The notes under the pieces: generated by a model
What the model saw: the letters and a program-made list of their open reading frames with translations, nothing else
Databases searched by the model: none
Told to the model about the DNA's origin: nothing
NCBI GenBank assembly: GCA_028707055.1
Contig: JAQTVA010000003.1
Coordinates: forward strand, 1-34,220
Origin: Candidatus Bipolaricaulis sp.
GTDB lineage: Bacteria > Bipolaricaulota > Bipolaricaulia > UBA7950 > UBA9294
Reading direction: 5' to 3'
Length of the DNA: 34,220 nt
Part shown: positions 10,580 through 13,497 of the stretch, piece after piece
Position numbering within the stretch: position 1 is the stretch's first letter
Layout of the letters: each line of letters opens with the position of its first letter
Program-made: the position numbers and the translations under genes

Positions 10580-11233
10580 CTACATCGGCACACGTATCCA
10601 GCGTTCGATGCCCCGCAGAAACGATGCTGCGATCGACACGAGCGCAAGGTAGATCAAGCCGACGATAAGGAATGTCTCGAAGAAGCGGAACGACTCGTAC
10701 GCAATCAACCTCCCTTCACCTGTCAGATCAACTAGCGTCACGAGGTAGGCAAGAGAGGAATACTTAATCAGATAGACGATCTCGTTGCTGCACCCGGGGA
10801 GCGCCTTCCGGAACACCTGCGGGAGGATGATGTGGATCACTGTCTGTCCAAGGCTCATTCCTAGCGCCCGTCCCGCGTCCATCTGCCCGTCGGGCACGGA
10901 GAGCACAGCGCTCCGTACGTATTCTGAGTGGTAGGCGCCACTGCAGAGGGTGAAGGCGAGGCTCGCGGCGACGAACGGTGTCATCGTGATTCCAACCCGC
11001 GGAAGCCCGTAGTAGAGAATGAACAGCTGAACGATCAGTGGAACACCACGGAACGTCAGTTGGTAGGCGCCGGCGAGGCCGCGAGAGAACCGGCCGCTGT
11101 AGACCTGGAGAAGACCAACAACAAGCCCCAGCGCCAGCCCCGCAGGGGCCGAGACGGCGATGAGGCGCAGGGTGACGAGGAGCCCATCCAGCAGTCGAGG
11201 GATCGCTTCAGCCAGCGCGGCGAAGGAGCTCAT
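10580..11233 (-). CDS. Polar amino-acid ABC transporter permease (HisM/GlnP type)
   Basis: LTFRGVPLIVQLFILYYGLP and DAGRALGMSLGQTVIHIILPQ (EAA loop); ATGA overlap with the upstream permease. Confidence 0.9.
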   Translation of the reverse strand: MSSFAALAEAIPRLLDGLLVTLRLIAVSAPAGLALGLVVGLLQVYSGRFSRGLAGAYQLTFRGVPLIVQLFILYYGLPRVGITMTPFVAASLAFTLCSGAYHSEYVRSAVLSVPDGQMDAGRALGMSLGQTVIHIILPQVFRKALPGCSNEIVYLIKYSSLAYLVTLVDLTGEGRLIAYESFRFFETFLIVGLIYLALVSIAASFLRGIERWIRVPM

Positions 11234-12774: not shown

Positions 12775-12879
12775 TCAGTCCGTCGCTCGGTCCGCTAGGT
12801 GTCTCTCAGTACGGTCCCAGACGGGACCGTGCGGCCAGAAGACAGAGCGCAACGGATACGGAATGAGACCGGTTCGCAC
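12775..12879 (-). CDS. Putative leader ORF 2 (34 aa) upstream of the amino-acid transporter
   Basis: GTG start with AAAGGAGGT SD at 5-nt spacing; MRTGLIPYPLRSVFWPHGPVWDRTERHLADRATD*. Below the ORF-track cutoff. Confidence 0.55.
   Translation of the reverse strand: MRTGLIPYPLRSVFWPHGPVWDRTERHLADRATD
12811..12830 (-). promoter_or_regulatory. Perfect 8-bp stem, 4-nt loop hairpin inside leader ORF 2
   Basis: Plus strand ACGGTCCC-AGAC-GGGACCGT. Confidence 0.6.
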
Positions 12880-12885
12880 GGGCGA

Positions 12886-12931
12886 CCTCCTTTCGAAATC
12901 GAAGCAGCGGAACGGGCTTCGTGCTAGGAGG
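12886..12931 (-). promoter_or_regulatory. Nested hairpin that could sequester the leader ORF 2 SD
   Basis: Minus strand CCTCCT(12931-12926)-agca-CGAAGC(12921-12916)-loop-GCTTCG(12905-12900)-atttcgaa-AGGAGG(12891-12886): two nested perfect 6-bp stems. Confidence 0.5.
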
Positions 12932-13046
12932 AAGGCCAGGCCGTCAGGTGGTTGTGCGGATGAGCAGTGATACTGCTGTGAGCGTGATGATGCGCGTGGA
13001 AGGTGGAACCTATCGACATTCGACCGCTTGTACGCGTCTTCAACAT
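12924..13046 (-). CDS. Putative His-rich leader peptide (leader ORF 1, 40 aa)
   Basis: MLKTRTSGRMSIGSTFHAHHHAHSSITAHPHNHLTAWPSS*; ATG preceded by GGAGGT at 7-nt spacing and a promoter-like element. The ORF track shows it only as the C-terminal part of a longer 79-aa frame. Confidence 0.65.
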   Translation of the reverse strand: MLKTRTSGRMSIGSTFHAHHHAHSSITAHPHNHLTAWPSS

Positions 13047-13074
13047 CGTAACCACCTCCACGCGAGATGAGCCT

Positions 13075-13103
13075 AGTCTACTGGAGAGCGTGGGCTCCGG
13101 CAA
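13075..13103 (-). promoter_or_regulatory. Putative promoter of the leader-transporter transcript
   Basis: Minus strand TTGCCG (13098-13103) - 17 bp - TAGACT (13075-13080), about 30 nt before leader ORF 1. Confidence 0.4.
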
Positions 13104-13414
13104 GCGATTGCCGACAGATGGATCCCTTGAGGGGCCGTCCGCGCGGCTGGCGACTGAGCTCAACCAGTTCGTCGACTGCCTGCGGGATACAGAAGTGCGC
13201 GAGAGCTTCGTCTGGTGGGCTGTCCCAAGAAGCGCCCTTCCGCCTGTATCAGCAGTCTCTAAACTGCATCTCGTGTTGCGGCAGAGTCACAGGTGTACGT
13301 GCTCCTGCATTACGCGCGGGCACTAGGTTAGAGCCTTGGCTAGATGGCGACTCACGACGTCTTCGATGTCTGGCAACTCCGGAACTTGCTGCGAGGTTGC
13401 ACGACTCGGAGAGT

Positions 13415-13497
13415 GGAGGATTCGAACCACGAAGCCCTATACAGAACAGAGAAACTGGCTCTTCGACCTGCTGGTTGGGAGAGGAGGATTCGAACCA
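13415..13497 (-). other. Two tRNA 3'-end-like fragments (T-loop plus acceptor-like), degenerate
   Basis: 15-nt direct repeat GGAGGATTCGAACCA at 13415-13429 and 13483-13497; on the minus strand GGTTCGAATCC T-loop followed by ACTCTCCG and TCTCCCAACCA. No matching 5' halves or T-stems. Confidence 0.4.

Follow-up and report, generated by a model that had tools for sequence, protein, structure and literature searches.

The described systems closest to the locus considered here are the hisL leader of gammaproteobacteria (RF00514) and the histidine leader peptides of Firmicutes and bacilli, which are attached to his, hisZ and hisS genes. All 17 leader-peptide attenuators in Table 3 of PMC9413887 sit on his operons (Firmicutes), and a His leader peptide has been described on hisZ and on a hisS paralogue in bacilli (PMC2965389). 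The hisXYZ importers are listed in the first of these papers (PMC9413887) under T-box or HisR control. The phylum discussed here (Bipolaricaulota/Acetothermia) lies outside the coverage of both papers, and a search of open-access literature turned up no His-codon leader described for an importer or for this phylum, so that novelty is provisional.

The window, meaning the whole stretch of 34,220 nucleotides analysed from Candidatus Bipolaricaulis sp., contains on its minus strand a short His-rich ORF (ORF 1, 12924..13046) upstream of an ABC importer cassette. This leader resembles hisL and the Firmicutes/bacilli His leaders in its clustered His codons and its own Shine-Dalgarno sequence, and further in having a putative promoter just upstream, a hairpin after the codons and a putatively histidine-related gene downstream. 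Unlike those leaders, it stands before an ABC importer, and neither an intrinsic terminator nor an Rfam match was found for it. For these two reasons it is not a textbook hisL attenuator, and since no terminator was found, membership of the classical attenuator family is not claimed. As with the His-specific T-box on hisXYZ (PMC9413887), a case that includes auxotrophs, tRNA-His-based control of an importer is proposed. However, the T-box reads uncharged tRNA through RNA structure, and no T-box match was obtained in the window or in 12 loci. The best explanation of the whole, which is considered likely, is that the 40 codons of ORF 1 encode a leader peptide whose histidine codons place the SBP-permease-permease importer under the control of tRNA-His supply.

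The individual elements of the leader had been listed in an earlier note made from the sequence alone (a 40-aa minus-strand ORF, GGAGGT 7 nt before its ATG, TTGCCG-N17-TAGACT upstream, eight His codons within 17 positions and an AGCAGT-ATC-ACTGCT hairpin among them), and all were recovered. ORF 1 begins with an ATG at 13046-13044 and ends with a TAG at 12924, giving the product MLKTRTSGRMSIGSTFHAHHHAHSSITAHPHNHLTAWPSS*. Its Shine-Dalgarno sequence, GGAGGT at 13059-13054, lies 7 nt 5' of the ATG; the extended form is CGTGGAGGTGG (13052..13062, minus strand), and GGAGGTGG at this site is conserved within clade 1 (vide infra). The -35-like hexamer TTGCCG (13098..13103) and the -10-like hexamer TAGACT (13075..13080), with a spacer of 17, are present at 13103-13075 on the same strand, though weak as a promoter, and promoter prediction on the window returned none above the threshold used. 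Among orthologs, TTGACA or TTGNNN aligns with the first hexamer and TAxxxT is kept at the second, with TTGACA-N17-TAxxxT in the equivalent position in relatives. With the transcript start taken from these promoter-like hexamers, ORF 1 would lie near the transcript's 5' end. The eight His codons occupy codons 17-33 (12948..12998, minus strand), a C-rich and G-poor stretch. Eight His in 39 residues against a 2.5% background gives p of about 5e-6, and the stronger evidence that ORF 1 is real is its conservation among orthologs. It is probably translated.

SBP orthologs at 62-76% identity are present in other genomes of the phylum, and all of those with enough upstream sequence have a short ORF with a GGAGGT-type Shine-Dalgarno sequence and a His cluster, the leader stop lying ~90-300 nt upstream of the SBP gene. 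Examples are MLTYQSSVRITLDLSLHAHHHAHHGHQS (L036), MQTISQIVRAEFTRITVTRHFHAHHGPHQDHLA (L034) and VQTVNRLGPISVNTIRLHAHLHAHHGPSWDRSL (L027); the L009 leader is truncated by a contig end, with the end of a His-rich ORF visible. Orthologs without the ORF, or with frameshifts in it, which the earlier note had named as grounds for abandoning its proposal, were looked for, and every testable ortholog has the leader ORF. Importers at about 39-44% identity have a second version of the leader, ending in HPHHxGHPAH or similar. In L091 and L092, inspection by eye indicates His-containing ORFs that lack a Shine-Dalgarno sequence, start nearly at the promoter and have their stop codon within the hairpin.

When 58 family-3 binding proteins are placed in a tree, leaders run through the whole of two clades and are found almost nowhere else: 22 of the 23 rows have a full or contig-cut leader, and one row is undecidable. 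Clade 1, which holds the window (11 rows, SH-aLRT 99), has a full leader in 10 rows and a contig-cut leader in one; clade 2 (12 rows, SH-aLRT 92) has it in 11, the remaining row being cut too short to judge. No leader was found in the remaining tree clades scanned, sister clades included. L099 is the one apparent exception on inspection, with a reduced leader (by eye, VRFVYAAYLSFHTHMAG) and a pocket resembling that of clade 2. None of the inspected matches of a motif search across 100 genomes represented a comparable transporter leader elsewhere. A His-rich ORF in G066 proved unrelated and was rejected as a leader, and inspected matches to the extended Shine-Dalgarno sequence or to the CACGGTCCC hairpin were ordinary genes or coding sequence. 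In G092, two contig ends (L086 and L087) share an identical 141 nt that includes the His leader MFIRIASLQLTGSSVCRLHHHHIHI and differ slightly on the upstream side beyond it; this may be an assembly break or two copies.

A comparison of codons in seven pairs of related leaders showed that His codons were replaced at 4 of 41 aligned positions versus 71 of 175 for other codons (Fisher p 1e-4, a value that is only indicative because the pairs are partly related to each other). Of 11 His codons that changed, seven did so by exchanging CAC and CAT. Outside His the peptide sequence is poorly conserved, and the number and spacing of the His residues vary. This is the pattern that had been suggested as a check, with the His-codon cluster and the Shine-Dalgarno sequence kept while the rest drifts. 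As judged from such comparisons, a conserved His-codon leader tied to the importer is well supported.

The RNA elements of the leader region are less uniform. In the window, CCACCTTCCACG (12995..13006, minus strand), immediately 5' of the first His codon and overlapping it, is the complement of the leader Shine-Dalgarno sequence, and pairing with 13052..13062 is predicted and was examined in a duplex test. An equivalent is present in 11 of 11 clade 1 leaders tested, with a combined p below 1e-6 in two kinds of shuffle, the 11 related leaders being treated as independent. The pairing was rejected as a universal feature, being significant in clade 1 and absent in clade 2. Most leaders also have a GC-rich hairpin 3' of the His codons, whose two arms both differ in sequence between members (GGTCCC/GGGACC, GCCCCG/CGGGGC, GCGCCC/GGGCGC, AGCAGT/ACTGCT, GGGCC/GGCCC). 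When shuffle tests are combined, p is 2e-4 for clade 1 and 0.01 for clade 2, again with related sequences treated as independent. The hairpin of the window (AGCAGT-ATC-ACTGCT, 12963..12977, minus strand) follows the first five His codons and is unexceptional in energy (p=0.45); it is credible only through its equivalents, the differently sequenced hairpins found there in most orthologs. The ORF 1 hairpin is missing in L033 and L086. Pairing of the hairpin 3' arm with downstream sequence was seen by eye in single genomes only and, not being conserved, was discarded.

No convincing intrinsic terminator was found between leader and SBP gene in the window or in 18 leaders scanned, the few pattern matches in L033, L036 and L055 having stems that are weak or T runs that are broken. 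Consensus folding of three subgroups with RNAalifold produced local hairpins and no shared switch or alternative fold common to the leader and the SBP start, and the importer leader region has no Rfam match, RF00514 included. All 18 leaders scanned have, across their 3' half, a C-rich, G-poor stretch of 60 nt, a composition that fits Rho control and also follows automatically from CAY codons alone. A Rho gene is present in the window's genome. The spacers between leader stop and SBP gene in clade 2 (L040, L049, L097 and L089; L055, L094, L095, L096 and L101) contain several conserved-looking hairpins, for example CCGCCGNNAGGCGG and GTGTAAGC...GCTTACAC; those searched have no Rfam match, and they could be part of a switch.

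The histidine genes of the phylum provide a second line of evidence. HisB (PF00475) and HisD (PF00815) were each detected in the same 9 of 100 genomes and are missing from the other 91, in a search that gave a match in 13 of 14 control genomes. Neither was found in the window's draft genome (1.64 Mb, 85.7% complete), and both are missing from 23 of 24 leader carriers, gene absence in incomplete MAGs being statistical only; the exception, G090, keeps hisB and hisD. The 24 carriers include G092, with its leader at contig ends, and G026, with a reduced form. HutH is present in 74 of 100 genomes and absent from that of the window. The phylum thus appears to have mostly lost histidine synthesis. 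In G090, the His-rich leader MCNQKLSSATNLFLSGLSAHHHPHHWVH stands directly before hisG, in a genome that also has the importer leader, and His-rich leaders directly precede hisG in G050, G049, G060 and G067 as well, while in G044 one precedes a hisZ-like gene. HisG was confirmed by Pfam in five genomes, and the gene in the sixth matches tRNA-synt_His. The hisG-operon leaders contain HHH runs, and neither they nor the hisZ-like leader have an Rfam match. No leader was found before the G095 his genes, and the G046 contig ends too early to judge. Because of these leaders, the phylum can be said to use His-codon leaders for histidine genes generally, with the importer as one target, and the hisG-operon leaders are an internal positive control for the reading of the importer leader. 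Together, the conservation of the His codons, the loss of HisB and HisD in carriers and the His-rich leaders of the phylum's hisG operons strongly support histidine as the sensed signal.

The importer cassette of the window, all on the minus strand, consists of a family 3 substrate-binding protein (PF00497, 11959..12729) and two ABC permeases (PF00528, 11230..11916 and 10580..11233). No ATPase gene adjoins the cassette in the window or in most of nine relatives inspected; in L147, an ORF resembling an ABC ATPase lies upstream on the opposite strand. Among solved structures, the closest in sequence to the SBP are an ancestral design that binds Gln/Arg and further amino-acid binders, with HisJ a weaker match. 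In HisJ numbering, both leader clades have D11, F14 and W52, whereas W14 and F52 predominate in those clades of the phylum that lack the leader. The shared D11 F14 W52 signature suggests one specificity class and does not itself give its identity. By homology the two clades would otherwise be generic amino-acid importers; from the leader, we infer that their substrate is histidine, a sequence-based prediction for two transporter clades.

Regulatory uORFs of the mgtL/mgtA type set a stalled ribosome against Rho, and the target is a transporter. In E. coli, a ribosome stalled on the topAI uORF counters Rho-dependent termination (PMC12121999). The candidate logic would be shared with the present leader, in that the position of the leader ribosome would be set against Rho; the signal here would be another one, and there is no sequence relation. 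When charged tRNA-His is scarce, ribosomes would be delayed or arrested at the His codons, which would keep the downstream RNA in its expressing state, whereas plentiful histidine would let ribosomes run off the leader and expression would fall. With no intrinsic terminator found, the off state is proposed, with less confidence, to be Rho-dependent termination starting on the C-rich, G-poor His-codon stretch, which a stalled ribosome would cover, or alternatively the masking of a ribosome-binding site. For the downstream switch, our best guess is that this stretch is where Rho-dependent or ribosome-binding-site control would act. In clade 1, the stalled ribosome may also keep leader translation open, since the leader Shine-Dalgarno sequence has its complement just 5' of the His codons. 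On this view, the cell supplied by the importer would be a histidine auxotroph.

Translation, stalling and the direction of control are what we infer, and the analogy with described leaders makes a strong case that such a leader mechanism would operate. The earlier proposal that the leader controls the transporter stands in part: the ortholog comparison bears out that the importer goes with a His-codon leader that is conserved and probably translated, but a classical terminator/antiterminator switch was not found, there being no intrinsic terminator. A more elaborate version, which is offered tentatively and is rather doubtful in its full extent, would make the His-codon stretch both sensor and switch, where Rho would load and which, in clade 1, would also act as an anti-Shine-Dalgarno sequence. 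The stalled ribosome would cover both, replacing the terminator/antiterminator pair, with a relay through a second ORF in the window's lineage (its Shine-Dalgarno sequence maybe masked by the end of ORF 1), and importers would have acquired the device from hisG operons while the phylum was losing histidine synthesis. With control of the importer by a histidine-codon leader, the range of codon-sensing leader peptides would come to include a deep phylum whose members are mostly uncultured, and uptake in place of synthesis, in bacteria that apparently lack histidine synthesis and still read tRNA-His charging, apparently for importer control. Such a leader would also be a modest system for studying leader control in which no intrinsic terminator takes part.

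Other readings of the same features differ in what they take to be conserved. If the exact peptide or translation itself mattered, and not tRNA-His supply, ORF 1 would be a sequence-specific arrest peptide or a plain reinitiation uORF. The recurrence of HAHHGP in clade 1 and of the GHPAH ending in clade 2 favors this, as does the richness of the window's second ORF in Pro and aromatic residues. However, the peptide is poorly conserved outside His, the hairpin GGGCC-ATCC-GGCCC also explains GHPAH, and a reinitiation uORF does not need His codons, leaving this reading unlikely. Quite unlikely, too, is a peptide that serves as a transition-metal ligand or sensor (Zn, Ni, Cu), with an importer for the metal or a metal-histidine complex. 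Short His-rich peptides can chelate metals and the HxHxxHH spacing is chelator-like, but the number and spacing of His are variable, hisG operons of the same phylum have His-rich leaders and the loss of HisB and HisD fits a need for histidine. The SBP also retains Arg77, Asp161 and Thr121, which we take to be amino-acid-binding positions (HisJ numbering).

The conserved entity might also be an RNA element, either a C-rich Rho site or the anti-Shine-Dalgarno pairing, with the His codons a by-product of CAC/CAT-rich RNA. That CACCTCCAC is the exact complement of GTGGAGGTG, with pairing in every clade 1 leader tested, and that the C-rich, G-poor stretch is present in every leader scanned would be expected on this account, which is nevertheless very unlikely: His codons remain in frame and swap CAC for CAT while other codons are replaced, clade 2 keeps them without the pairing, and HHH runs also occur in the hisG-operon leaders. 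Short ORFs are common (80 ORFs >= 30 aa in the surrounding 8 kb), and a functionless chance ORF would need no further explanation, but conservation at 11 clade 1 importer loci (10 full, one contig-cut) and 11 clade 2 loci, with absence from sister clades, makes chance a negligible prospect, and it is rejected on the strength of that conservation.

Between the His leader and the SBP gene lies a second candidate leader ORF (ORF 2, 12775..12879, minus strand) of 34 aa with a GTG start, MRTGLIPYPLRSVFWPHGPVWDRTE..., whose product begins MRTGLIPYPLRSVFWPHGP...; its Shine-Dalgarno sequence GGAGGT is at 12885..12890 (minus strand), and AAAGGAGGT stands 5' of the GTG. It has a homologue in L036 (MRMGLIPYPLRPVFWPHGP...) and a looser counterpart in L033, and over the first 21 codons the window and L036 differ with dN 0.15 and dS 0.44. 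A hairpin, GGTCCC-GTCT-GGGACC (12813..12828, minus strand), directly follows the ORF 2 CAC codon, and the same hairpin is found 3' of CAC in L027, L033 and L036. CCTCCT at the end of ORF 1 (12926..12931, minus strand) is weakly predicted to pair with the ORF 2 Shine-Dalgarno sequence, in a whole-region fold no better than shuffles (z = 0.26), and that ORF 1 would relay to ORF 2 is a guess.

Further upstream, at 13411-13429 and 13479-13497, the window has two copies of the 19-nt GGTTCGAATCCTCC (minus strand), which resemble the 3' part of a tRNA; ARAGORN found no tRNA in the window. In L139 and L147, the cassette has near it a second binding-protein gene, of branched-chain type, with another candidate leader ORF upstream. 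This ORF ends in a large hairpin, followed by what appears to be a true intrinsic terminator (GACTACAGGCAATGCCTGTGGTCTTTATTTTT / GGACTGCAGGCTGTGCCTGTGGTCTTTTTTT), which suggests attenuators on other importers of the phylum.
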